Of a stretch of DNA of 64,000 bases, positions 14,016 to 26,726 are shown one piece after another. The stretch comes from Microbacterium halotolerans (GTDB lineage: Bacteria > Actinomycetota > Actinomycetes > Actinomycetales > Microbacteriaceae). The translations under genes were made by a program, and so were the position numbers. The notes under the pieces were generated by a model. That model had not been told where the DNA came from, made no database searches, and worked only from the letters and a program-made list of their open reading frames with translations. The stretch is from positions 1,749,953 to 1,813,952 of the forward strand of contig NZ_KZ984051.1 of the NCBI RefSeq assembly GCF_003569805.1, written 5' to 3'. The stretch's first letter is position 1; each line of letters starts with the position of its first letter.

Positions 14016-15024
14016 GCTCGACCGCGACAAGGGCGTAGCGCCCGGTGTCGTGACCAAGACGAAGAAGCGCCTGGTGGTGGTCGCCGGCCGCTCGCACCCT
14101 GAACTGGCGACCTCCGTGGCCGAGCACCTCGGCATCGAGGTGGCGCCGACTGAGCACCGCACCTTCGCGTCCGGCGAGATCTACACGCGCTTCGAGGTGT
14201 CGATGCGCGGCTCCGACGTCTTCCTCATCCAGTCGTTCTCCCAGAACGTCAACGAGGAGCTGATGGAGCTTCTCATCATGCTCGACGCGCTCAAACGTGC
14301 CTCCGCCAAGCGCGTCACCGTCGTGGCGCCTTACTACCCGTATTCGCGCCAGGATAAGAAGGGTCGCGGCCGCGAGCCGATCTCGGCGCGACTCATCACC
14401 GATCTCATCGCGCAGGCCGGTGCGGACCGCATCATGAGCGTCGACCTGCACGCCTCCCAGATCCAGGGCTTCTTCGACGGCCCCGTCGATCACCTGTTCG
14501 CCAAGCCCGTCCTGATGAACCACTTCAAGGAGTCGTTCACCGAAGCGGAACGCGAGAACCTCACGGTCGTCTCGCCCGACATGGGCCGCGTTCGTGTGGC
14601 CGACCAGTGGTCGGAGTCGCTGGGGGCGCCGCTTGCGATCATCCACAAACGCCGCGACCCGAAGGTCGCCAATCAGATCACGGTGCACGAGATCGTCGGG
14701 CAGGTCGCCGGTCGAACCTGTCTCCTCGTCGACGACATGATCGACACGGCGGGCACCATCGTCAAGGCCGCGCAGGCGCTGAAGGCGAACGGCGCCGAGA
14801 AGGTCATCGTAGGTGCGACTCACGCGATCCTCAGCGGTCCTGCGGTCGAGCGGCTCGGCGATGACGCGATCGATCGCGTCGTCGTCACCGACACCGTTCC
14901 GGTCCCGCAGGATCGCCGCTTCGAGAATCTCACCGTGCTCTCCAGCGCACCGCTGCTCGCCCGAGCGATCCGCGAGGTCTTCGATGACGGCTCCGTCACG
15001 AGCATGTTCGACGGGGCCGCCTGA
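13984..15024 (+). CDS. prs: Ribose-phosphate pyrophosphokinase (PRPP synthetase)
   Basis: 346 aa with a GTG start inside the 3' end of glmU. Converts ribose-5-phosphate and ATP to PRPP for nucleotide, histidine and tryptophan synthesis. Family motifs are GRSHPELA, FASGEIYTRFEVS, YYPYSRQDKKGRGREPIS, the metal-binding VDLHASQIQGFF and the PRPP loop LLVDDMIDTAGTI. A start at the GTG at 14050 would give a more standard N-terminus. The longer form is kept because its lysine-rich lead (about 22 residues) ends in LDRDKGVAPG, which I recall from Microbacteriaceae homologues. The 32-nt overlap with glmU implies a shared transcript. Confidence 0.93.
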   Translation: MGQKQKQKHVELDRDKGVAPGVVTKTKKRLVVVAGRSHPELATSVAEHLGIEVAPTEHRTFASGEIYTRFEVSMRGSDVFLIQSFSQNVNEELMELLIMLDALKRASAKRVTVVAPYYPYSRQDKKGRGREPISARLITDLIAQAGADRIMSVDLHASQIQGFFDGPVDHLFAKPVLMNHFKESFTEAERENLTVVSPDMGRVRVADQWSESLGAPLAIIHKRRDPKVANQITVHEIVGQVAGRTCLLVDDMIDTAGTIVKAAQALKANGAEKVIVGATHAILSGPAVERLGDDAIDRVVVTDTVPVPQDRRFENLTVLSSAPLLARAIREVFDDGSVTSMFDGAA

Positions 15025-15076
15025 GCATCACAGGCGATTCATATCCGGATCCGATCCACGGTTCCGCGTTCGGCTC

Positions 15077-15082
15077 TAGTCT
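15077..15082 (+). promoter_or_regulatory. Candidate -10 box (TAGTCT) of the flavin operon
   Basis: TAGTCT lies 40 nt before the ATG of the FMN-binding lipoprotein and fits the TANNNT pattern seen before other genes here. I see no convincing -35 box at normal spacing. Confidence 0.3.
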
Positions 15083-15122
15083 GGCGGTACCGACTCACCG
15101 CGACGCCGACAAGGGGCCCACG

Positions 15123-15551
15123 ATGAACAGAACCGTACGCACAGGATCCGCAATCGCGGGAGCCGCAGGAATCGTCGTTCTCGCCGGGTGCGGGGCCGTC
15201 ACAGTCGGTTCTGGAGAGGCCGAGTCATCGACAGATGGCGACACTTCGTCCATCGAGTACTCTGACGGCACGTATTCCGCCGAGGGCACCTATCAGACGC
15301 CGGAGACCGTTGAGACGATCACAGTGACGGTCACACTGGAGAACGAGGCCGTCACCGAGGTGGAGGTGACGGGCGACCCGCAGGCGCCCGAGACGGAGCA
15401 GTATCAGGGCGAGTTCATCGACGGCATCGCCGATGAGGTCGTGGGCGTCGACCTCGACGATCTCGATGTGAGCCGTGTCGCGGGCTCGTCGCTGACGAGC
15501 GGCGGTTTCAACCAGGCGATCGATCAGATCAAGCAGGACGCCGCAGCCTGA
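15123..15551 (+). CDS. FMN-binding domain lipoprotein
   Basis: 142 aa. The signal peptide ends in a lipobox with Cys23 (LAGC), so the mature protein should be lipid-anchored on the outer membrane face. Residues about 45-142 form an FMN_bind domain. The usual flavin-acceptor motif SGAT-x-TS appears as AGSSLTS (about 120-126), with serine where threonine normally carries the flavin. ApbE enzymes attach FMN through a phosphoester bond to Thr or Ser, and apbE follows after one base, so this protein is its likely substrate. It would then act as an extracellular flavin electron carrier. Confidence 0.85.
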   Translation: MNRTVRTGSAIAGAAGIVVLAGCGAVTVGSGEAESSTDGDTSSIEYSDGTYSAEGTYQTPETVETITVTVTLENEAVTEVEVTGDPQAPETEQYQGEFIDGIADEVVGVDLDDLDVSRVAGSSLTSGGFNQAIDQIKQDAAA

Positions 15552-15552
15552 C

Positions 15553-16419
15553 ATGACGGGTGCAGCGTGGCGATTCGACGCGATCGGCACGTCGTGGGAG
15601 ATCGTCGCTCCCGCACCGCTCGGTGACGAACTCCGTCGAGCGGTCACGGAGGCCGTCGATCGCTTCGATGCCGAGTGGTCGCGCTTCAGGGCCGACTCGC
15701 TGGTCTCCCGCCTCGGTGCGCGAGGCGGTCAGGCACCCGCTCCGGCAGACGCCGAGGCCATGCTCGATCTGTACACCGAGCTGTCGTTCGCCACGGACGG
15801 TGCTGTGAACCCGCTTGTGGGGAAGTCGCTGGAGCGGCTCGGGTACGACGCGGCGTATTCACTGCGTGCGTCGGGGGATCCTCTCGCGGCTCCGGCGGGG
15901 TGGAGCGACAGGATGACTTGGCGCGGCGGCGCGCTGCGCATCGACGGCCCGGCCGTCGTCGACGTGGGCGCGCTCGGCAAGGGGCGTCTCGTCGACCGGG
16001 TCCTCGATCTCGTCCCGGACGCCGTTGTGATCGACGCGGGCGGCGACATCCGAATCGGATCGGAGCCTCAGCGCATCGCACTCGAGCATCCGTACGACGC
16101 GCGCAGGGCGGTAGGCCGCGTCACGGTGCGAGACGAGGCACTGTGCGCGTCGGCGTCGAACCGGCGGGCGTGGGGTGACGGACTGCACCACGTGATCGAC
16201 GCGCGCACGGGAGCGCCGGTGCGCACGATCGTCGCCAGCTGGGCGATCGCGGCGACCGCGATGACTGCGGACGCGGCGGCGACCTCCCTGTTCTTCGATG
16301 GAGGGCCGCGCTTCGCCCGCGATCATGACGTGCACTGGGTGCGCATGCTCTCCGACGGCGGAGCAGAATGGTCGCTGGGGGAGCGGATCGAGAAGGGCGA
16401 GGCGGAGCTGTTCATATGA
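15553..16419 (+). CDS. apbE: FAD:protein FMN transferase (ApbE)
   Basis: 288 aa. Transfers FMN from FAD to a Thr/Ser of an exported or membrane protein. Visible family features are the DGAVNPLVGKSLERLGYD segment, VDVGALGKGRLVD, the flavin-binding VIDAGGDIRIG, HHVIDARTGAP and the metal-site segment MTADAAATSLFF. I see no convincing signal peptide, so like several short actinobacterial ApbE proteins it may work by another export route or in the cytoplasm. It lies one base after the FMN-binding lipoprotein and overlaps the oxidoreductase gene by ATGA, so all three are one operon. Confidence 0.9.
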   Translation: MTGAAWRFDAIGTSWEIVAPAPLGDELRRAVTEAVDRFDAEWSRFRADSLVSRLGARGGQAPAPADAEAMLDLYTELSFATDGAVNPLVGKSLERLGYDAAYSLRASGDPLAAPAGWSDRMTWRGGALRIDGPAVVDVGALGKGRLVDRVLDLVPDAVVIDAGGDIRIGSEPQRIALEHPYDARRAVGRVTVRDEALCASASNRRAWGDGLHHVIDARTGAPVRTIVASWAIAATAMTADAAATSLFFDGGPRFARDHDVHWVRMLSDGGAEWSLGERIEKGEAELFI

Positions 16420-17975
16420 TCGGATCACTCAGGGCCTGGTACCTGTGGGCGGTGCGCCTGCTCGGCAGGGCGTCGATGTACCGGCTCACCCTGTTCGCGC
16501 TGGCCTCGCTCGTGGTCGTCGCCTTCATCGCGTCGGCATTCGGCCTGCTCGCTGCCACACCGGCATCCATCGCGCTCACCGCCGTGGTCCTCGTCATCGT
16601 CGGCTCCGGTGTCGACATGATGGGGCACCGCCTACGGGGAACACCGTGGCGCGCAGAGTCGACGCTGATCACCGCCGGCATCCTGCTGTTCGTGCTTCGT
16701 CCAGGCACGGATGCCGCCACGCTGGCCGGTGCGGCTGTCGGGGCCGCGATCGCCGTGGCTTCGAAGCACCTCGTCTCCTGGCGGGGCCGCCATCTGCTCA
16801 ATCCTGCGGCGGCCGGCGCCACGGGCGCGACGCTCGTGGCGCTCGCGCCGTGGATAAGCGGGGGCTCGGCCTGGTGGGTGGGCTCGCCCGTGATGTTCGT
16901 GCCCGTGCTGCTCGCGGGCTTCGTCGTGCTGTGGCGCACGGAGCGCGTCAGGGTCGTCGCGCTGTTCTTCCTCGTCGCGGTCGTCGTCTCGGTGGTGCGC
17001 ACGATCGTGCAGCTGAACGCCAGCGGCGCGTCTATGGCGCTGGATGACCTGCTCACAGCCGTCATCGTGCAGTCGCCGTATCTGTTCCTCGGCGCGTTCA
17101 TGCTTTCGGAGCCGTTGACGCAGCCGCCGCGGCGCTGGCAGCAGTACATCGTCGCCCTCATCGTCGGGGCCCTTGCCGGATGGCCGGTGTCCCTCGGCGT
17201 GATCACGCTCGGACAGGAGCGGGCGCTGCTGATCGGCAACCTCGTGGCGCTCTGCTTCGCCGCGCGCTCGGCTGTGCGGCTGACACTCGCGGATGCCAAG
17301 GACCTGACGCCCACCGTTCGTGAGCTGAGCCTCACCGTGGCGGGCGGCATCCGGTTCGTGCCGGGCCAGTATCTCGAGCTCGAGGTGCCGCACCGAGGCG
17401 CGGACGCGCGCGGCACCAGGCGCGAGTTCTCAATCGCCTCCGCACCGGAGGAGCTGCCGGAGCTGCGCATCGCGTATCGTGCCGCGGGCGGCCTGCCGCC
17501 GTCCACATACAAGGCGGCGCTCGCTCGGGCCGGCGCAGGGGAGAAGCTCCGCGCGACGGGAGTGTGGGGCGACTTCGTGCTGCCTCGCGACGCAGAGCAG
17601 CCCTTGCTGCTGGTCGCCGCCGGGATCGGCATCACGCCGTTCGTCTCGCAGCTGCGTCATCGTCGTATCGCAGGCCGGATGGGAGACATCGTGATCGTGT
17701 ACGTCGCGAGCACGGTGGATGAACTCGCCTACCGGGACGAGCTCGAGCGTGCCGGCGTTCGGGTGCACATCGTGACTCCCGATGATCCAGGCGGGTTGCC
17801 GGAGCAGTGGACGTGGCAGAGCGAACGGCTCACGGGAACCGCGCTCGCGGATGCCGTGCCGGGTCTGGACGAGCGCCGTGCCTACGTCTCTGGCCCTCCC
17901 GGCCTGATCGCCGGACTCGCGCCGACGCTGCGCAGAGCGCGATCCGTCACGACGGACGCGTTCGCCGGTTACTGA
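16416..17975 (+). CDS. NqrB/RnfD-like membrane domain fused to FNR-type flavin reductase
   Basis: 519 aa. The first about 280 residues form roughly nine membrane helices with the RnfD/NqrB-like stretch RGRHLLNPAAAGA and the cytosolic-edge motif FMLSEPLTQPPRRWQQ. Residues about 290-519 are a ferredoxin-NADP reductase fold: FAD-binding RREFSIASAP, NAD(P)-binding GIGITPFVSQL and the C-terminal YVSGPPGLI. It should take electrons from cytosolic NAD(P)H and pass them across the membrane, with the ApbE-modified lipoprotein as likely acceptor. The start overlaps the apbE stop (ATGA). No Rnf/Nqr partner subunits are present, so this is a stand-alone fusion. Confidence 0.85.
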   Translation: MIGSLRAWYLWAVRLLGRASMYRLTLFALASLVVVAFIASAFGLLAATPASIALTAVVLVIVGSGVDMMGHRLRGTPWRAESTLITAGILLFVLRPGTDAATLAGAAVGAAIAVASKHLVSWRGRHLLNPAAAGATGATLVALAPWISGGSAWWVGSPVMFVPVLLAGFVVLWRTERVRVVALFFLVAVVVSVVRTIVQLNASGASMALDDLLTAVIVQSPYLFLGAFMLSEPLTQPPRRWQQYIVALIVGALAGWPVSLGVITLGQERALLIGNLVALCFAARSAVRLTLADAKDLTPTVRELSLTVAGGIRFVPGQYLELEVPHRGADARGTRREFSIASAPEELPELRIAYRAAGGLPPSTYKAALARAGAGEKLRATGVWGDFVLPRDAEQPLLLVAAGIGITPFVSQLRHRRIAGRMGDIVIVYVASTVDELAYRDELERAGVRVHIVTPDDPGGLPEQWTWQSERLTGTALADAVPGLDERRAYVSGPPGLIAGLAPTLRRARSVTTDAFAGY

Positions 17976-18144
17976 GCGCCGGTTGCGTCCGACGAAGATT
18001 TCACGTGCGAGAGGTTGCGCGGATGGGGCTTCGGCGCCAGCGGCCCATCGACACGACCCCTGAGGTGCGATCGGACGTATGGGGCGATGCCCATCGCAGC
18101 TCTGTCGCCGTGAGCGATGAGGATGCGATCGTCTCGGCGGGACT

Positions 18145-19119
18145 TCACTCGGCGACGAGCACGTCCCCGTCCCAGCGGACCGCGAACGGTCCCATGATGC
18201 CTCCACGGAACGGCGCCTCAGCCGTCTCATCGCGGAACGCGAACATCAGCCATTGGTCGCCCTCGCGACGCCGGACGAGCCTCGCCGAGTACAGCCCCTG
18301 TGGGGTGATGGGATTGGCTCGGTCGAGCGCGAATCCGCCCACCGTCGATTCGGCCGGTGCCGTCCATGACCCCGCTCGCGCTCCGGCATGCGCAGCGGAC
18401 GCGTGGAACGGATTGCACGAGAACAGGAGAACGGAACGTCCGTCGACGACTTCGGTCTGGGGTACCTCGAGCTGACCGAACCCCGTCTCTGAAGGCTCGG
18501 TGATGGCAGGACGCAGGGTCCACGCGGTGAGATCGGGGGAGGTCGCATGGCCGATCACGCCTCGGCCGAATTTGGGGCCGTGTGGGGACCGCGCCGTGAA
18601 CAGCATGTGCCAGCCAACGCCATCCGGATCACGCACCACCCATGGATCGCGCAGCGTCGGGTCGTGCCAGTCATCCTCGTCTGCCCCGACGTACCAGCTC
18701 GGATCCGGTTCGAACAGCGGGCCCGGAAGCTTGTTCCAGGTCTCCAAGTCGTTCGAGATCGCGCACCCGATGCGCTGGATCGGTTGTCGATCCTGTGACA
18801 GGGATACTCCGGTGTAGAACATCAGCCATCTGCCATCAGGACGACGCGTGACTGATCCCGTCCACGTTGCGAGGTCGTCGAATGCAGGAGCGTCAGAACG
18901 CACCACCGCGTCCGAGACTCGTGTCCAGGAGGTCAGATTCTGTGAGACGGCGTGACCGATCGATGCGCGATGGTGGCGTCGTTCGGGCTCGTGAAGCGCG
19001 CGTGAGGCGTAGAGGAAGAACAGATGGTACTGCTCTCCGTCGTCGGCGAACCAGAAGTCCCATACCCATGAATCGGTCAGATCGAACACCGGTGGGCGGG
19101 TCGTGTCCAACGAGATCAC
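18145..19119 (-). CDS. Glycoside hydrolase, five-bladed propeller (GH32/43/68 type)
   Basis: 324 aa, GTG start, no signal peptide, so it probably acts in the cytoplasm on imported sugar. Candidate catalytic carboxylates in the family order are D21 in VWDFWFADDG (nucleophile or base), D158 in LRDPW (transition-state stabiliser, the RDP motif) and E218 in GQLEVPQTE (acid). Blade repeats such as WTGSVTRRPDGRWLMFYTG are clear. The RDP motif favours a beta-fructosidase-like enzyme, but GH43 activity on arabinose or xylose linkages cannot be excluded. It overlaps the upstream esterase stop (GTGA) and is the last gene of the importer operon. Confidence 0.75.
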   Translation of the reverse strand: MISLDTTRPPVFDLTDSWVWDFWFADDGEQYHLFFLYASRALHEPERRHHRASIGHAVSQNLTSWTRVSDAVVRSDAPAFDDLATWTGSVTRRPDGRWLMFYTGVSLSQDRQPIQRIGCAISNDLETWNKLPGPLFEPDPSWYVGADEDDWHDPTLRDPWVVRDPDGVGWHMLFTARSPHGPKFGRGVIGHATSPDLTAWTLRPAITEPSETGFGQLEVPQTEVVDGRSVLLFSCNPFHASAAHAGARAGSWTAPAESTVGGFALDRANPITPQGLYSARLVRRREGDQWLMFAFRDETAEAPFRGGIMGPFAVRWDGDVLVAE

Positions 19120-20078
19120 GACGCAGCCTCGCTCTGCGTGAGCACACGGCGCAGCCAGTCCACGCGCGCCGCGACGGCGTCGCGGCTGAGCGCGGCATCG
19201 GGCACGAGAACGTCGAACCCGTGCGCACCGCCCGGCCAGACGTGCAGTTCGGCGTCACCGCCGTCGGCCCAGATCCTCGCGGCGTACTCGACGCACTCAT
19301 CGCGGAACGTCTCGGCAGAACCGACGTCGATGAAAGTGCGCGGTACGCCTGAGAGGTCATCCGCGCGAGAAGGGGAGGCCGTCGGCGGCACGTGCTCGGG
19401 AGCCCCACCCAGGTAAGCGGTCCATGCGGTCTCGTTGGCAGAACGGTCCCATGCACCGTGACCGGCCATCTGATGCGCCGATCCGGATGCGTTGCGGTGG
19501 TCGAGCATCGGACAGATGAGCATCTGCCCGTACAGATCGGGGCCTTCGTCTCGGGAACGCAGAACCGCAGCTGCGGCAAGGCCACCGCCAGCGCTGACGC
19601 CTTCTACGACGATGCGATTCGCGTCGATGCCGAGGTCCGGTGCCTCTGCGGCGATCCAGACGAGCGCATCATGTACATCGTCGATCGCGGCGGGATAGGG
19701 GTTCTCAGGGGCAAGGCGGTACTCGACCGAGGAGACGGCCATTCCCGCCGTCGCCGCGATGCGTGCCACTGGAGCCAGCGCGTCATAGGCGGTCCCGGTG
19801 ACGAGGCCTCCGCCGTGCACATGGAACAGCAAAGGAACGGGACGAGTCGAGGCAGCGGGGCGAATCAGCGCGAGGTCGATCCTGCCGCCGTCGCGTCGCG
19901 GAATCCGGTGCACGGTGTGAGTCGCCTCACCGTCGCGGGTGAGTGCAAGGACGTCGGGTTGCTCACTGCGCGCACGCAGCGACTGGATCTGCTCTGGGGC
20001 GAGCATCGTCACGATGTCTTCGCGAGAGGCGAGCGCGATGGCGACTTCGGGATCAAAAGGAGGACGGGAACCGGGCAT
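19116..20078 (-). CDS. Alpha/beta hydrolase, HSL-type esterase
   Basis: 320 aa. Oxyanion motif HGGG (88-91), nucleophile elbow GVSAGG (Ser162), an Asp in the SAETFRDE region and His in GGAHGFD make the full hormone-sensitive-lipase triad. There is no signal peptide. It starts 3 nt after the second permease gene and overlaps the glycosidase gene, so it probably removes acyl groups (for example acetyl) from the same imported carbohydrate. The substrate is inferred from context only. Confidence 0.85.
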   Translation of the reverse strand: MPGSRPPFDPEVAIALASREDIVTMLAPEQIQSLRARSEQPDVLALTRDGEATHTVHRIPRRDGGRIDLALIRPAASTRPVPLLFHVHGGGLVTGTAYDALAPVARIAATAGMAVSSVEYRLAPENPYPAAIDDVHDALVWIAAEAPDLGIDANRIVVEGVSAGGGLAAAAVLRSRDEGPDLYGQMLICPMLDHRNASGSAHQMAGHGAWDRSANETAWTAYLGGAPEHVPPTASPSRADDLSGVPRTFIDVGSAETFRDECVEYAARIWADGGDAELHVWPGGAHGFDVLVPDAALSRDAVAARVDWLRRVLTQSEAAS

Positions 20079-20081
20079 TCA

Positions 20082-20906
20082 TCAGCCTTTCAAAGAGCCT
20101 TGGAGCAGAGCCTGTACGAAGTGTCGCTGGAAGATCAGGAACACGATGAGCGTCGGCGTGAGGATGAGCAGTGACCCGGCGCACAGCAGAGGAACATCAG
20201 TGCCCCACTGCCCCTGGAACGCGCCGAGCGCACCGGCCATGGTCCGCTTCGCGGGATCATCGACGAGGACGACCGCGAGGAGGAACTGGTTCCAGGTCCA
20301 CAGGAACAGAAGAATTGCAAGAGACGAGAGCGCCGGGACTGACAGCGGCACGTGCACGCGCCAGAACAGCTGCCACGTCGTCGCCCCGTCAACGCGTGCT
20401 GCTTCGGACAGATCGTGAGGCATGTTGACGAAGTGGGCGCGCATCCACATCACGGCGAAGGGAAGGTACAGCGCGATCAGCGGAAGGATCAGCGCCCAAC
20501 GTGTGTTCAATAGACCCAGATCGCGCATCTGGTAGTACAGCGGCACGATGATTCCTTCGAACGGCAGCGTGAGTCCGAGGATGAAGGCCACGAAGATGAA
20601 CCCGCCGCCAGGCGGACGCAGATGTCCGAGAGCGAACCCTGCGAGAGTCGCGATGAGCACGGCGACAGGCACGACGCCGAGTTCGATGAGAACGCTCGAC
20701 CACAGCAGCCGAAGCATATCGGCCGATTGGAAAGCGAGGGCGAAGTTCTCCCAGTGCGGTGTCTCAGGCCAGCTCAGGCCGCTCGGATAGGTGCCGGGCG
20801 GATGCAGCGCTGTGACGAACAGACTGATGAACGGTGCGACCGTTACGAGCAGAAGAGCGATGAGGAGCGAACGGCCGACGAGGCGATCACGGAGCGGGGC
20901 TTTCAT
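20082..20906 (-). CDS. Sugar ABC transporter permease (MalG type)
   Basis: 274 aa, six membrane helices. The cytoplasmic EAA loop that docks the ATPase is LSEAARVDGATTWQLFWRVH, close to the carbohydrate-uptake CUT1 consensus. ATG at 20906 overlaps the stop of the first permease (ATGA). It should form the channel with that permease. No ATPase gene is in the operon, so a shared MsiK-like ATPase encoded elsewhere is expected. Confidence 0.92.
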   Translation of the reverse strand: MKAPLRDRLVGRSLLIALLLVTVAPFISLFVTALHPPGTYPSGLSWPETPHWENFALAFQSADMLRLLWSSVLIELGVVPVAVLIATLAGFALGHLRPPGGGFIFVAFILGLTLPFEGIIVPLYYQMRDLGLLNTRWALILPLIALYLPFAVMWMRAHFVNMPHDLSEAARVDGATTWQLFWRVHVPLSVPALSSLAILLFLWTWNQFLLAVVLVDDPAKRTMAGALGAFQGQWGTDVPLLCAGSLLILTPTLIVFLIFQRHFVQALLQGSLKG

Positions 20907-21853
20907 GTGTCCTTCCCTCGCAGCAGGCGCTGCATCGGCAGTACGACGAGTAGGACCAGCGCCATGAGAATGACCGCGAGAGCCGACGCCGTACCGACGT
21001 CGCGTTGGAAGAAGGCGAGGTAGTAGATCTGCAGACCCGGCACCATTGTGGAACCGCCTGGCCCGCCCTGGGTCGAGATATAGATGATGTCGAACGCCGC
21101 CAGAGCCGAGATGACCGTGACCGTCACCGCCACTGTGAGCTCTTGGCGAACGCTGGGGAGGGTGATGGCGAAGAACTCTCGTATCGGGCCGGCTCCGTCG
21201 ATCCGCGCCGCCTCGTACAGCGACGGGTCGATTTTGGACATTCCTGCTAGGAGAAGTACGGTGCACAGACCCAGCTGCACCCACGCGCCGATCATGCCCA
21301 CTGCCGGGAGCGCGGTCGTGAAATCCCCGAGCCAGGCTCGTGCGAGATGACCGAGTCCGACTGCGCGCAGCAGCTCGTTGACGAGGCCGTCGCTGGCCAG
21401 CTGCCAGCTCCACATGATGCCGGAGGCGACAAGGGGAATCACCTGCGGAAGGAATAGCACGGTACGCGAGAAGCCGGCGAAACGCGATGCCGCGATGCCG
21501 CGGATGACGTTCGCGGCGAAGAGGCCGAGCACGACGGGGATCACGCTGAAGTAGATGATCAGCTCGAATGAGTTGAGTATCGCACCGACCAAGGCAGGGT
21601 CGCGGAACACGGCGGCATAGTTCGACACGCCCTCCCACGTCGCAGCGGAGAAACCGTCCCAGTCGTAGAACGAGTACTGAGCTGTCAGAGCGATCGGGCG
21701 CAGCACGAACGCGATGTAGAACGTCGCAGCCGGCAGGACGAGCAGATAGGCCCCAGCGGCGCGTGTGAATCTGCGTCGTCGGTCGAATCGTCGGCGTCTC
21801 GTGCGGGCCGCCGCGTCTGGGTCCACGGCGGCCCGTGTCATGGGGGACGTCAT
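20903..21853 (-). CDS. Sugar ABC transporter permease (MalF type)
   Basis: 316 aa with a basic N-terminus and six main hydrophobic helices. The EAA loop reads LYEAARIDGAGPIREFFAIT. The segment STQGGPGGSTMVPGLQIYY near the end is typical of CUT1 MalF-like permeases. It starts 2 nt after the binding-protein stop and overlaps the next permease by ATGA, so stoichiometric co-translation is likely. Confidence 0.92.
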   Translation of the reverse strand: MTSPMTRAAVDPDAAARTRRRRFDRRRRFTRAAGAYLLVLPAATFYIAFVLRPIALTAQYSFYDWDGFSAATWEGVSNYAAVFRDPALVGAILNSFELIIYFSVIPVVLGLFAANVIRGIAASRFAGFSRTVLFLPQVIPLVASGIMWSWQLASDGLVNELLRAVGLGHLARAWLGDFTTALPAVGMIGAWVQLGLCTVLLLAGMSKIDPSLYEAARIDGAGPIREFFAITLPSVRQELTVAVTVTVISALAAFDIIYISTQGGPGGSTMVPGLQIYYLAFFQRDVGTASALAVILMALVLLVVLPMQRLLRGKDT

Positions 21854-21855
21854 CG

Positions 21856-23226
21856 TCAGCCGTCGACCTCAGCCTCGTAATCGGTCTGGACCGAGCTGAG
21901 CACCTCGGCAGGGTCCTGCTGACCCTCCGCGAGCCGTTGCATCGCGGGGGTCCAGCTCTGAGCGTAGATCGAACCGGTGGCATTGGCGATGAAGTCCATC
22001 GCTCCGTCGGCCTCGCTGATGATCGAACCGGCGCTGAGCGTTTCCGCAGTCACGGACGCCGGATCGACGTCAGGCATGAATGCGTCTGCAGGTCCCATGG
22101 GGTGGGAGCCACCGACTTCCACCGTGATCGTCCGTGCCGTCTCGTCTGTCGCGATCCAGTTGAGGAAGTATGCCGCGCATTCCGGGTTCTCCGCGTATGC
22201 AGAGACTCCGTAGGTAAGCGGTGCAGACATCGCACCGAGCTGACCGTCTTCCTCGATCGGAGGCATCGGGAAGAAGCCGACCTCACCCGGCATCTGCTCG
22301 TCGAAGTTCCCCGATTCCCAGTCGCCGCTGAAGATGAACGCGCTCTCTCCATCGATGAACCGGGCGATCATCTGCGAGTAGTCGAGGGCGTTGATGTCGT
22401 CTGCGAAGTACTCCTCGTCGATCCAGCTCTGGAGGTGTGTCGTCGCGCGCAGGTTATCCGGAGTGTCGATCGTGGCGCCGGGCTTCTGGAAGACCCAGTC
22501 ATTGATCGGCGCCGTCTCTCCGTAGGATGCCATGAGCAGTTGGAGTGGGAAGAGCAGCCCACCTGTTGCACCGCCGTTGAACTGTGCGACGGGAGTGAGA
22601 CCAGCGTCTCGGGCGGCGCCGAGCTGTGCATCGAACTCGTCAAGGGTCGTGGGAGGGGAAACCATGCCGAACTCCGATGCAAGCGTCTTGTTGTAGTAGA
22701 CGCCTGTCATGGAGAAGTTCAGTCCCATGCCGTAGAGCGGCCCAGCGCCCCGCCTGCCCTCGTCATCGACGCGCAGTTGTTCGAGCTGAGCCTCGGGCCA
22801 ATCCGTCCAGCCGAACTGTTCAGCGTACGGATCGAGGTCGAGCAGAAGATCAGCGGACGCGAGTTCGGACATCTGGGGAAGGCGCATGAGGTCGGGCGGT
22901 GAGTCGCGAAGCACTCGTGGGGCATTCTGCGTGATGACGGCGAACTGGTCCTCGCGGATGTCGAACGTTACGTTCGGGTGCTGAGCGGTGAACTCGGCTG
23001 CGAGTTCCTTGGGGAGGGGGAAGCCTGTCTCGATGTACATGTCGAGCACGACATCGTCGTCGCCGCAGGCTGCTGTCTGCGGCGACTGCTGTGCGGGCGG
23101 GTCATCGTCGGGCGATGCGCCGCCTCCGGGTGGCGCGCACGCCGCAAGAGCGAGAACAGAAACTGACAGAGCGCCTATGACGAGTGGCGCGCTGCGTGCG
23201 GGGGTTGGTGAAGTGTGGCGAGACAA
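21856..23226 (-). CDS. Sugar-binding lipoprotein of the ABC importer
   Basis: 456 aa. The start is TTG, fixed by AAAGGAG a few bases upstream; no ATG or GTG fits. A lipoprotein signal ends LALAAC (Cys about 30). The rest is a family 1 extracellular solute-binding fold with acidic residues and tryptophans suited to an oligosaccharide site. It is the first gene of a five-gene operon with two permeases, an esterase and a glycosidase, under a promoter overlapped by a LacI-type operator. Confidence 0.92.
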   Translation of the reverse strand: MSRHTSPTPARSAPLVIGALSVSVLALAACAPPGGGASPDDDPPAQQSPQTAACGDDDVVLDMYIETGFPLPKELAAEFTAQHPNVTFDIREDQFAVITQNAPRVLRDSPPDLMRLPQMSELASADLLLDLDPYAEQFGWTDWPEAQLEQLRVDDEGRRGAGPLYGMGLNFSMTGVYYNKTLASEFGMVSPPTTLDEFDAQLGAARDAGLTPVAQFNGGATGGLLFPLQLLMASYGETAPINDWVFQKPGATIDTPDNLRATTHLQSWIDEEYFADDINALDYSQMIARFIDGESAFIFSGDWESGNFDEQMPGEVGFFPMPPIEEDGQLGAMSAPLTYGVSAYAENPECAAYFLNWIATDETARTITVEVGGSHPMGPADAFMPDVDPASVTAETLSAGSIISEADGAMDFIANATGSIYAQSWTPAMQRLAEGQQDPAEVLSSVQTDYEAEVDG

Positions 23227-23260
23227 CGGTGTCTCCTTTCGCGAAGGGTAATCGCTGGAA

Positions 23261-23276
23261 GCTAACGCGTGTTAGC
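23261..23276. promoter_or_regulatory. LacI-family operator
   Basis: GCTAAC-N4-GTTAGC is an inverted repeat in the divergent region between the importer operon and its LacI-type regulator. It covers roughly +1 to +16 of the importer promoter, the classic position for a repressor that releases when sugar is present. Confidence 0.65.
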
Positions 23277-23283
23277 ATTGACC

Positions 23284-23312
23284 AGTATGAGGAGTGCTCA
23301 CCTGCTTGTCAA
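23284..23312 (-). promoter_or_regulatory. Sigma-70 type promoter of the importer operon
   Basis: On the minus strand TTGACA (23312-23307) is followed after exactly 17 nt by CATACT (23289-23284). The start point would fall at about 23277, at the edge of the operator. The TTG start lies about 50 nt downstream with a strong ribosome-binding site. Confidence 0.6.
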
Positions 23313-23324
23313 CCCTCGTCGGTG

Positions 23325-23350
23325 TGGCATGCCCGTGACAGGGCATGCCA
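23325..23350. repeat. Perfect 10-bp inverted repeat in the lacI leader
   Basis: TGGCATGCCC and GGGCATGCCA are separated by GTGACA, ending 16 nt before the regulator GTG. Each arm contains the palindrome GGCATGCC. It could be a second operator for autoregulation or an RNA hairpin that limits translation of the regulator. Confidence 0.5.
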
Positions 23351-23366
23351 TGGAGAGGATCAAGAG

Positions 23367-24398
23367 GTGAAAGCCAGGCGAGTGACCCAGGCCGGTGTGG
23401 CGCACGCTGCGGGTGTCTCGCGTTCGACGGCTTCGCTCGTGCTCTCCGGACGGGGCGACGAGCTGCGCATTTCGGGCGAGGTGCAGAGGAGAGTACGCCA
23501 GGTCGCTCTCGAACTCGGGTACCGTCCCAATCTGGTTTCTGCTGGTCTTCGCGACGGAACGAGTCGAACCATCGGATTCCTCTCAGACACGATCGCCACC
23601 TCTCAGCTTGCCGGAGACATGATCCGAGGAGCTCTTGCTGAGGCGCATCGTGCCGGGTACATGCTGTTCATCGGTGAGAGCGAGGGCGACATCGCTGAAG
23701 AGGAGCGCCTCGTCGACGCGATGCTGGACCGTCAGGTGGACGCCGTCGTCATCGCATCGATGTTCACCCGCGAGCGGGGAGTATCGGAAGCGGCGCGCGG
23801 CCGTGCAGTACTTCTCAACGCGCTGCCGGAGCATGGAATCGACGTCGCGGCCGTGGTGCCGGACGAGTACGACGCAGGGCGCCGCTCCGCTGAGAGGCTG
23901 CTCGCCGCGGGCCACCGCCGGATCCATCTGATCGGTGTGGGGCTGGGCGAGGATGAGGTGCCACCTGAAACGGTCGCGGGAGTCGAGCGTCGGCGCGGCA
24001 TCCTCGACGCGCTGGGGGCCGTCGGTGTGACTCCTGAAAGCGGGCGGCTGTGCAGAATCTGGCTTCCTGACGACGGCTGGAAGGCTACCCGCGATCTGCT
24101 CGCATCTGGTGTCGACGGAGGGGCGCTGATCACGTTTAACGACCGTCTCGCATTCGGTGCATATCAGGCGCTCCACGAGGCGGGGCTCACAATTCCCGAT
24201 GACTTCTCGATGGTGTCGTTCGACGACCACCAACTGGCGGGCTGGCTGCATCCGGGACTGACGACGTTCGCGATCCCGCACTACGAGCTCGGTGAACGTG
24301 CAGTTCGGCGGTTGCTGACGGATGAAGGCCCCACAGGGGGCACAGAGCGGATCGCAATGCCGCTGGTGGAGCGCGGATCGATCGCCGAACACGGTTGA
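23367..24398 (+). CDS. LacI-family transcriptional repressor
   Basis: 343 aa, GTG start preceded by AGAGGA. The N-terminal helix-turn-helix is VTQAGVAHAAGVSRSTASLV with the hinge-side LELGYRPNLVSAGLR. The periplasmic-binding-protein-like effector domain runs from about 60 to the end, with TFNDRLAFGAYQALHEAG and MVSFDDHQLAGWLHPGLTT typical of the family. Divergent from the sugar importer operon, it should repress that operon through the operator at 23261-23276 and respond to the imported sugar or its breakdown product. Confidence 0.93.
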   Translation: MKARRVTQAGVAHAAGVSRSTASLVLSGRGDELRISGEVQRRVRQVALELGYRPNLVSAGLRDGTSRTIGFLSDTIATSQLAGDMIRGALAEAHRAGYMLFIGESEGDIAEEERLVDAMLDRQVDAVVIASMFTRERGVSEAARGRAVLLNALPEHGIDVAAVVPDEYDAGRRSAERLLAAGHRRIHLIGVGLGEDEVPPETVAGVERRRGILDALGAVGVTPESGRLCRIWLPDDGWKATRDLLASGVDGGALITFNDRLAFGAYQALHEAGLTIPDDFSMVSFDDHQLAGWLHPGLTTFAIPHYELGERAVRRLLTDEGPTGGTERIAMPLVERGSIAEHG

Positions 24399-24426: not shown

Positions 24427-25995
24427 CTATGTCAATGCGTCTTGATCGCCGTCCGGCACCGCGTCCAGGGGCTTCGCGGGCAGGCGCACCTCGAACGTCG
24501 TGTCGCCCGGTGAGCTGCGCATGCTGATCGTGCCGTGGTGCGCCTCGATGATGGCCTTTGCGATCGCCAGGCCGAGACCCGTGCCTCCCGTCTTGCGCGC
24601 TCGCGACACGTCGCCGCGCGCGAACCGCGAGAACATCTCCGCCTGCAGCCCATCGTCGATGCCAGGCCCGTTGTCGTGCACCTGCACCACGGCACGCGTG
24701 GCGCTGCCCTCGCCTTCGCGGTGCACGCGCAGCGTCACCTCAGTGTCTGCGGGGGTGTGCGTTCGCGCGTTGGCGAGCAGATTCACGAACACCTGGCTGA
24801 GCCTGGCACCGTCTCCTGCGACGATGAGCGGCTCCTCGTCGGCCTCCACGCTCCAGGCATGGTCCGGCGCGGCCACCTGCTGATCGACCAGCGCGTACAC
24901 GGCGACCTCGGTGAGATCGACCGCGTCGATGACCACTTCCTGACCCTCGTCGAGCCGCGCCAGCAGGAGAAGATCCTCCACCAGCCCCGTCATCCTCAGC
25001 GACTGCGCCTGAATGCGCTCGAGCGACTGCTCCGTGGTGTCGGACAGCGTGGGGTCCCGCAGCGACAGCTCCGAATAGCCCCGGATGGACGCCAACGGAG
25101 TGCGCAGCTCGTGGCTGGCATCGGCGACGAAGCGGCGCATGGTCGCCTCATTGCGCTCGCGCGCCGACAGGGAGTTCTCAACGTGGTCGAGCAGCGTGTT
25201 CAGCGAGGAGCCCACCTGTCCGACCTCGGTCGCAGGGTCGGCCTGGTCGTGCGGAACGCGCTCGGCGATCGACACGTCGCCCTGGTCGAGGCGCTGGCGC
25301 GAGACGCGTGTGGCGGTCTCAGCGATGTCGCGCAGCGGACGCAGGCCTCTCCGGATGATCACGCTGGTCGCGACCCCGAGGCCGACCATACCGCCCGCTG
25401 TGACCAGGCCGATCGCCCACAGCATCCGGGCCAGCGTCTCGCTCTCGCTGCTGGTCGCCAGTCCCAGCACTCCGAGCACTTTGCCAGAGGAGCCGTCGAT
25501 CAGCGCCTGCACTCTGAAGCTTCCGATGCCGGAGAGCTTCACCGTGTGCGGACGGACGTCCGTGATGACCGCAAGCACTTCGGATATCTGCTGCGCTGAC
25601 AGCGACTGTGCCGAGAAGTCCTCGGTGAAGTAGGCACCGGCCGCGCCGCCGGAACTCGTCCCGAAGATCAGCATCGTGCCTGGCGCGGCGCGTGAGTCCT
25701 GCAACTGACCGACAGGATCGCCGGCGGCTGCGTTCTTGCCGAACTCCGGCCCGAGGGATTCGCTCGTGTTCTTGAGGCGTTCGTCGACGCTCGCGTTGAG
25801 CACGGTGGTCAGCACGGCGCTCGTGACGAGTGCGACCACCAGCAGGATGCCGGCGACGATCGCGAACACCGTCGCCATCAGCCGCGACTGCATGCTCATC
25901 TTTCCGGTGAGCCGCCCCGGTGCGACCGACCCGGTCGGAGTCTCGTCGGTCGGTTGCTGCGGCGGTGGGGCACCCGTCGCCGGGATCCGGCTCAC
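24427..25995 (-). CDS. Membrane sensor histidine kinase
   Basis: 522 aa, GTG start overlapping the response-regulator stop (GTGA). A proline-rich cytosolic lead (1-32) precedes TM1 (about 41-66), an extracellular sensor region (67-190), TM2 (about 191-214), HAMP (about 216-270), and the dimerisation/phosphoacceptor helix with His295 in ASHELRTPLAS. The ATP-binding domain follows (VNLLANARTHT as N box, DNGPGIDD as G1, GGTGLGLAI as G2). The organisation is that of PhoR/TcrY-like EnvZ-class kinases; the signal is unknown. Confidence 0.93.
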   Translation of the reverse strand: MSRIPATGAPPPQQPTDETPTGSVAPGRLTGKMSMQSRLMATVFAIVAGILLVVALVTSAVLTTVLNASVDERLKNTSESLGPEFGKNAAAGDPVGQLQDSRAAPGTMLIFGTSSGGAAGAYFTEDFSAQSLSAQQISEVLAVITDVRPHTVKLSGIGSFRVQALIDGSSGKVLGVLGLATSSESETLARMLWAIGLVTAGGMVGLGVATSVIIRRGLRPLRDIAETATRVSRQRLDQGDVSIAERVPHDQADPATEVGQVGSSLNTLLDHVENSLSARERNEATMRRFVADASHELRTPLASIRGYSELSLRDPTLSDTTEQSLERIQAQSLRMTGLVEDLLLLARLDEGQEVVIDAVDLTEVAVYALVDQQVAAPDHAWSVEADEEPLIVAGDGARLSQVFVNLLANARTHTPADTEVTLRVHREGEGSATRAVVQVHDNGPGIDDGLQAEMFSRFARGDVSRARKTGGTGLGLAIAKAIIEAHHGTISMRSSPGDTTFEVRLPAKPLDAVPDGDQDALT

Positions 25996-26726
25996 GATTC
26001 CTTCTGAGGTGCCTTGATCATGTATCCGGCGCCGCGCACGGTGTGGATCAGCGGATCGCCGCCGGCGTCGATCTTCTTGCGCAGGTACGAGATGTAGAGC
26101 TCGACGACGCTGGAGCGCCCTCCGAAGTCGTAGTTCCACACGCGGTCGAGAATCTGCGCCTTGCTCAGCACGCGGCGCGGGTTGCGCATCAGGAAGCGCA
26201 GCAGTTCGAACTCGGTGGCCGTCAGCTCGATCTCGCGCCCGTCGCGATCGACCTCGTGGCTGTCCTCATTCAGGCTGAGGTCGCCCACGCGGAGCACCGG
26301 GTCCTCCTCCGCGGGCTGCACGCCGGTACGGCGCATCAGAGCGCGCAGGCGGGCGACGACCTCTTCGAGGCTGAACGGCTTGGTGACGTAGTCGTCGCCG
26401 CCAGCGGTGAGGCCGGCGACGCGGTCCGAGACCGCGTCCTTCGCGGTGAGGAACAGGATCGGCACGTCGTCGCCCGACTGGCGCAGTCGCTGCATCACCG
26501 CCATGCCGTCGAGATCGGGCATCATGATGTCGAGCACGACCGCATCAGGCGCGAACTCGCTTGCGGCGCGCAGCGCGTCGAAACCGCTCGCCTCTGCGCG
26601 CACTTCCCAGCCCTCCATCTTCAGCGCCATGGAGAGCAGATCGGTGAGCATCTGCTCGTCGTCGACGACGAGCACGCGAACGGGCGAGCCGTCGGGCCGG
26701 GCGAGGGGAGCGTGCGGATCGGTCAT
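25992..26726 (-). CDS. OmpR/PhoB-family response regulator
   Basis: 244 aa from the ATG at 26726, which has GGAG just upstream; ATGs at 26735 and 26744 would add 3 or 6 residues. The receiver domain has the acidic pocket VDDE and phosphoacceptor Asp66 in LDIMMPD, with LTAKDA and KPF completing the site. The C-terminal winged helix contains ELTATEFELLRFLMRNPRRV and GRSSVVELYISYLRKKID. It pairs with the overlapping kinase. Direct repeats upstream (26749-26779) look like its own binding site, so autoregulation is likely. Confidence 0.95.
   Translation of the reverse strand: MTDPHAPLARPDGSPVRVLVVDDEQMLTDLLSMALKMEGWEVRAEASGFDALRAASEFAPDAVVLDIMMPDLDGMAVMQRLRQSGDDVPILFLTAKDAVSDRVAGLTAGGDDYVTKPFSLEEVVARLRALMRRTGVQPAEEDPVLRVGDLSLNEDSHEVDRDGREIELTATEFELLRFLMRNPRRVLSKAQILDRVWNYDFGGRSSVVELYISYLRKKIDAGGDPLIHTVRGAGYMIKAPQKES

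Follow-up and report, generated by a model that had tools for sequence, protein, structure and literature searches.

How can electrons from cytosolic NAD(P)H reach a flavoprotein held outside the membrane, and on which side of that membrane does the protein receive its flavin? Both questions are raised by three + strand genes at 15123-17975 of the window (the whole 64,000-nucleotide stretch of Microbacterium halotolerans DNA analysed here), which encode an FMN_bind (flavin mononucleotide-binding) lipoprotein, an ApbE flavin transferase and a membrane-FNR fusion protein, laid out as follows.

15123-15551, + strand: FMN_bind lipoprotein gene, 142 amino acids (PF04205, 23.4 bits, cut-off 22)
15123-15191, + strand: signal peptide with lipobox LAGC, read from the sequence (lipobox at residues 20-23; Cys23 presumed lipidated)
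15483-15500, + strand: acceptor motif G121-S122-S123-L124-T125-S126, read from the sequence (predicted FMN-bearing Ser123, codon 15489-15491)
15553-16419, + strand: ApbE-family FAD:protein FMN transferase, 288 amino acids (PF02424, 119 bits, cut-off 25.6)
16416-17975, + strand: membrane-FNR fusion gene, whole, 519 amino acids
16416-17267, + strand: NqrB/RnfD-like N-terminal membrane domain (PF03116 matches of orthologues and VIA fold)
17268-17975, + strand: C-terminal FNR/NqrF-type NAD(P)H:FAD (flavin adenine dinucleotide) reductase domain (PF00175, NAD_binding_1, 33 bits, cut-off 22)

The gene identities proposed in an earlier note on this DNA hold, with PF04205, PF02424 and PF00175 all above cut-off. 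The span given there, 15077-17975, contains the trio together with 46 bases upstream of its first start codon, and the description of the genes as tightly overlapped is right for the last two, which overlap by 4 nucleotides, and wrong for the first two, which stand 1 nucleotide apart. No sigma-70 promoter or terminator pattern was seen in 14900-18300, and Rfam found nothing at the operon and two transfer RNA genes elsewhere in the window.

Within Microbacterium the trio is close to universal. The membrane protein is present in 55 of 59 genomes, partial in one of these (G055), and 56 of the 59 match the fusion, but G043 does so in the FNR half only. Fifty-four relatives have the membrane protein; with G030, G044, G046 and G055 set aside, the loci of 50 were compared together with that of the window, and the full trio with its order kept was recovered in 49 of these 51. 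Such completeness and constancy of order indicate that the arrangement is not due to chance, and a search for this exact gene trio, suggested in the earlier note, has thereby found it. Of the two exceptions, L083 ends at a contig edge, and in L080 the 2.7 kb upstream contain no match to FMN_bind or ApbE. The spacing between the FMN_bind and ApbE genes is -4 to +35 nucleotides in 48 of the 49 complete loci and 198 nucleotides in the remaining one, and that between the ApbE and fusion genes is -4 to +93 nucleotides in 43 loci and 552-614 nucleotides in six. Five of these six wider gaps, in L040, L047, L050, L052 (where PF03473 was checked) and L054, contain a called MOSC-type gene, and the gap size of the sixth locus fits an insert of this type.

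Outside the genus the distribution is uneven. In the class 19 of 296 genomes match, seven of them Microbacterium; in the phylum 10 of 396 do, two of these in the FNR half only. In other families of the class all three genes occur in each of the 12 loci examined; in L108 the FMN_bind and ApbE genes stand about 2.6 kb apart, and in L113 a stop interrupts the membrane gene. A set of named genomes, the best 80 of 289 relatives, comprises 64 trio-type loci (L115-L178) and 16 that match in the FNR half only (L179-L194); the genus, class and named sets overlap in species, and a wider 60-member set used below overlaps the genus set. Among these best 80, trio-type loci come from Arthrobacter, Aeromicrobium, Agreia, Cellulomonas, Nocardioides, others and one Candidatus Saccharibacteria (L161), whose tree position is unsure because of its long branch; the window itself falls in a group of 25 entries, 20 of which bear the label Microbacterium. 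FMN_bind and ApbE are both present in 60 of the 64; L151 and L152 lack both, and L172 and L157 are cut. In L178 the ApbE gene is placed after the membrane gene, and in L122 and L147 two frames each match the FMN_bind profile of the lipoprotein family. No other family is as widespread in the 64 loci as those of the trio, which bear 17, 16 and 13 genus labels against 7 for the next family (unlabelled loci together count as one label).

The third gene had been described as an NqrB/RnfD-FNR fusion, and this stands: homology of its membrane domain to NqrB/RnfD is supported by orthologues and by the modelled fold. PF03116 is matched at E up to 1 by 29 of the 51 aligned orthologues (window counted), at best with 7.2e-7, and PF00175 by all 51, in which the C-terminal Tyr519 is invariant. 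In the AlphaFold model of the fusion, with a mean pLDDT (predicted local distance difference test) of 87.4, VIA comparison likens the membrane domain to RnfD (8rbq_D, Z 23.4, root-mean-square deviation (rmsd) 7.5, 265 residues; 9eri_D, Z 22.8, rmsd 5.5, 255 residues) and to NqrB (8acw_B, Z 22.4, rmsd 3.9, 256 residues; 8evu_B, Z 22.1, rmsd 3.5, 252 residues), and the C-terminal half to an FNR (4eh1_B, Z 25.1) and to NqrF (8ad0_F, Z 23.0). The 50 matches listed by Foldseek for the same model are mostly FNR-type, the likeness to RnfD/NqrB having emerged in VIA, and when the fusion alignment was used for a profile search of the PDB, 168 matches resulted, the best 60 of which cover the FNR half only. 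Across the 51 aligned fusions the membrane part has one invariant His (H126) and no invariant Cys, which disfavours a bis-His haem or a Cys-held iron-sulphur (Fe-S) cluster. The S-G-A-T of Escherichia coli RsxD, which includes the covalent-flavin Thr, aligns to Q-S-P-Y (Tyr222) of the window with no Thr, in an alignment that is weak (probability 23.5), and suggests less firmly that this Thr has been lost. The complete path envisaged in the earlier note was accordingly too strong a description: neither a haem pair nor a set of Fe-S ligands is evident, and the RsxD Thr aligns weakly to a Tyr. The note's central idea, that NAD(P)H electrons pass to a flavoprotein at the surface, is upheld as the likeliest role.

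The lipoprotein is predicted to carry electrons by a covalent FMN on the outer face of the membrane. Its lipobox pattern recurs in 49/49 Microbacterium copies and in 57/60 of the wider set, the exceptions being L160 and L166, which were not resolved, and L161, whose FMN protein has no PF04205 match and carries a plain membrane anchor in place of the lipobox. The motif GSSLTS is invariant in 49/49 Microbacterium lipoproteins and GSS in 60/60 of the wider overlapping set. One search supplied 30 further actinomycete FMN_bind domains, of which 29 have GAT and a single one GAS at this place; these domains, like the 30 ApbEs compared below, were taken from the loci of the best-scoring genomes and therefore lean to canonical members. 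The earlier note had read this site as Ser in place of Thr, and a Ser does occupy the acceptor position (A120-G-S-S-L-T-S), within a fixed GSS variant and not by a simple Thr-to-Ser exchange. We predict Ser123 to be the FMN-bearing residue. The excerpts available of the literature on NQR/RNF-like flavinylation hold no discussion of a GSS acceptor, the motif there being [S/T]GA[S/T]. The AlphaFold model of the lipoprotein has block means of 87-97 from residue 41 on and below 50 earlier, and its best VIA match is a covalent-FMN domain, SaFMN3-D2 (8p2a, Z 10.7, rmsd 2.1, 87 residues), followed by NqrC (Z 8.7) and RnfG (Z 8.1). Since unrelated IscU folds reach Z 8.8, the fold taken alone is only moderate evidence. 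A PDB sequence search with the lipoprotein gave no match at E up to 1.

In the ApbE protein of the window, neither start codons nor a hydropathy proxy point to a signal peptide or lipobox. Its frame has no ATG, GTG or TTG in the 19 in-frame codons upstream, and in 34 of 49 Microbacterium ApbEs (49 of 50 rows, the truncated L083 being dropped) fewer than 18 residues of N-terminal extension are possible before the window's residue 1. Peak hydropathy over the first 40 residues ranges from -0.19 to 1.47 in the Microbacterium ApbEs (0.83 in the window), compared with 1.89-2.59 in the 49 lipoproteins (2.19 in the window) and 1.99 in E. coli ApbE/Ftp. The wider set contains 61 ApbEs, of which 58 have a hydropathy value, with a maximum of 1.32, and 48 of the 61 have room for fewer than 18 residues, counting the truncated L157 and the start-less L122. 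Peak hydropathy is at most 1.53 in 30 other actinomycete ApbEs (L195-L224), and 19 of 30 loci beside canonical SGAT proteins (L225-L254) hold an ApbE-like open reading frame (ORF), with a maximum of 1.73 (L250) and partial frames in L229 and L235. The missing leader thus looks general among the Actinomycetes sampled and is not special to the trio. S200, H213 and D240 are invariant in 49/49 Microbacterium ApbEs and plausibly correspond to the ApbE Ser/His/Asp triad (PMC12052999). The absent leader, the fixed GSS and the prior publication of such a system, to which we return below, go beyond the earlier note.

The genome holds a single ApbE match and a single FMN_bind gene over cut-off. A second FMN_bind match (15.1 bits, under cut-off) was rejected, as its ORF is a two-G-domain GTPase, presumably of the Der/EngA type. 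Extracytosolic ApbEs need a source of FAD outside the cytosol (PMC9973259), and PF07456, the EetB family, has no match in the 59 Microbacterium genomes and is matched in 2 of 14 control genomes. In the excerpts of the flavinylation literature no discussion was found of a leaderless ApbE with an exported substrate.

We consider it, on balance, probable that the lipoprotein precursor receives its flavin from ApbE in the cytosol, prior to export, and that the mature lipoprotein takes NAD(P)H electrons through the membrane protein. The product of the operon would be a transmembrane NAD(P)H oxidoreductase with two subunits, similar in kind to the NQR/RNF-like systems in the literature. Remaining in the cytosol, ApbE would use the FAD present there to put FMN on Ser123 of the precursor, which would then be exported with its flavin and lipid-anchored outside. 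The FNR domain would oxidise NAD(P)H and pass electrons via its FAD; these would cross the membrane through one or more non-covalent flavins of the NqrB/RnfD-like domain and arrive at the lipoprotein's covalent FMN, which in turn may reduce an envelope or extracellular acceptor.

Several observations weigh against this reading. The membrane domain of the window has no PF03116 match at E up to 1, hhalign aligned the fusion only weakly to E. coli RsxD (E 8.6e-4), and it gave nothing of note for the lipoprotein alignment against E. coli RsxG. The earlier note had staked the fusion beforehand on a match to NqrB/RnfD profiles; the window sequence alone lacks it, and the match comes instead from the 29 family members, alongside the fold. 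An altogether different use of the membrane protein, in which the path leads mainly to oxygen or to cytosolic partners, as an NAD(P)H oxidase or as a feeder of an enzyme such as the MOSC protein, seems to us highly improbable. SpNOX, a bacterial NADPH oxidase, does appear among the structure matches of the FNR domain, and a MOSC-type gene stands within the operon in five Microbacterium loci and by its gap in a sixth, but the other 43 spaced loci, the window included, have no insert, the exported lipoprotein is retained in 49 of the 51 loci, and a single invariant His in the membrane domain speaks against a NOX-type bis-haem. The acceptor motif poses a further difficulty. The minimal ApbE motif comprises seven residues (PMC12052999), and the S-R-V-A-G-S-S of the window keeps the Gly and final Ser of D-x-x-[S/T]-G-A-[S/T] and differs at three fixed positions; in one system, a Thr-to-Ser acceptor is reported to lower flavinylation by 10-55% (PMC12052999). 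Both points would suit a lipoprotein whose FMN is non-covalent, or whose GSS is a degenerate acceptor, with ApbE serving some other cytosolic target. We regard this as distinctly unlikely, given the invariance of GSS in all 49 and all 60 trio lipoproteins and the ApbE gene tightly behind the lipoprotein gene; nor does the genome have another match over cut-off to FMN_bind, or any to DUF2271 or DUF3570, further known ApbE substrates (the newer classes Flavodoxin_4 and FMN_red were not searched).

Where ApbE acts is the other point of contention. The leader test is hydropathy, a crude proxy, and the actinomycete ApbEs at 1.53 and 1.73 come near the control range. Location can matter, because Salmonella ApbE expressed in the cytosol did not rescue growth of a knock-out (PMC12052999). 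Export is a further concern: RR occurs in the n-region of 1 of 49 Microbacterium signal peptides (RR, RK or KR in 9 of 49), which leaves twin-arginine (Tat) export of a folded, flavin-loaded protein unsupported as a general route, so that Sec would have to carry the flavinylated chain, and no precedent for this was found. Sec can reportedly pass bulky adducts, a finding attributed to Bonardi 2011. The same electron path could be served by an ApbE that works outside without a classical signal, through non-classical secretion or piggy-backing, with FAD brought out by some carrier; the lipobox of the substrate in 49/49 Microbacterium copies, the failure of the cytosolic Salmonella enzyme to complement and the fact that most characterised ApbEs are lipoproteins (PMC12052999) favour it, but neither position nor hydropathy revealed a leader in the ApbEs examined, EetB matches are missing from all 59 genomes, and we hold this alternative to be unlikely. 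With FMN loaded in the cytosol before export, as in our preferred reading, an FAD exporter would not be needed. Possibly this applies across the Actinomycetes, with leaderless ApbEs loading FMN on precursors in the cytosol, the proteins exported with their flavin and GSS a dedicated variant, a tentative extension to which we give somewhat less than an even chance.

The genes around the trio were considered for clues to the acceptor and to regulation. The following features lie downstream in the window and are neighbours, not core components.

18145-24398: sugar-uptake island (GH32-type protein, alpha/beta-hydrolase-like ORF, two ABC permeases, solute-binding protein, LacI-type regulator)
24427-25899, - strand: sensor kinase (Pfam; start codon by gene caller)
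25992-26675, - strand: response regulator (Pfam; start codon by gene caller)

The sensor kinase family is found near the trio in 46 of the 51 Microbacterium loci and the regulator family in 40, mostly convergent downstream, and among the 64 named loci the pair is confined to Microbacterium and unlabelled loci. In relatives the pair usually adjoins the trio, whereas here the sugar-uptake island separates them. In 14 of the 51 Microbacterium loci, L039 among them, a gene for a cation P-type ATPase, named from its sequence, separates prs from the FMN_bind gene, and on the Candidatus Saccharibacteria contig (L161:1880-9485) the whole trio adjoins a heavy-metal P-type ATPase and a DUF305 protein. 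As clues to the acceptor these ATPases and the DUF305 protein are suggestive only, and the neighbours as a whole point to no acceptor, since across the 64 named loci 7 is the highest number of genus labels for any family outside the trio.

Nearly every sampled Microbacterium would thus possess a compact electron path from NAD(P)H to the cell surface, given the membrane protein in 55 of 59 genomes (one partial). Surveys based on PF03116 can miss this path, as 14 of the 59 genomes pass its cut-off compared with 55 that have the protein. If ApbE does act before export, this would be a different answer to how exported flavoproteins are supplied with their cofactor.

The trio can be compared with four known systems. 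Complete Na+-NQR and RNF complexes share with it the NqrB/RnfD-like, NqrC/RnfG-like and NqrF-like modules. They differ in that PF02508, which we take to be the RnfA/E and NqrD/E family, has no match over cut-off in the window's genome (99.42% complete; best 12.2 bits), and in that the window fusion shows no ferredoxin-like Fe-S domain by Pfam scan and no visible covalent flavin site. No further membrane subunits of such a complex were found, the flanking genes scanned having other functions; PF03116 likewise has no genome match over cut-off, but that search misses the window's own fusion too.

Apart from the missing PF03116 match, the trio fits a published NQR/RNF-like flavinylation system. 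Meheust 2021 described 127 NQR/RNF-like clusters from 127 genomes, mainly Actinobacteria and the Candidate Phyla Radiation (CPR), on the basis of PF03116 and PF00175 (PMC8238504). Common to both are an extracytosolic FMN-binding protein, an ApbE nearby and a protein with an NqrB/RnfD-like N-terminus and a PF00175 C-terminus; the motif given there is [S/T]GA[S/T] where the window has GSS, and the window fusion escapes the 2021 PF03116 criterion. Huang 2024 modelled a two-subunit complex of this kind and noted that the covalent site is lost (PMC11334425), the membrane domain lacking the covalent Thr, as that of the window may also do, to judge by the weak RsxD alignment. The same work proposed, without measuring it, unidirectional transfer from NAD(P)H to the outside (PMC11334425), the direction suggested for the trio.

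Two further systems bear on the side of the membrane on which ApbE works. Extracellular electron transfer in Listeria (PplA, FmnB, EetB/FmnA) also relies on a Gram-positive surface flavoprotein served by an ApbE. There FmnB acts outside on FAD exported via EetB/FmnA, EetB being the energy-coupling factor (ECF) subunit of the FAD exporter (PMC9973259), in contrast to the leaderless ApbE and missing PF07456 match of the trio. Klebsiella has a cytosolic ApbE for fumarate reductase, which is leaderless like that of the trio and modifies a soluble cytosolic substrate (PMC12052999), whereas the substrate proposed here is an exported lipoprotein.

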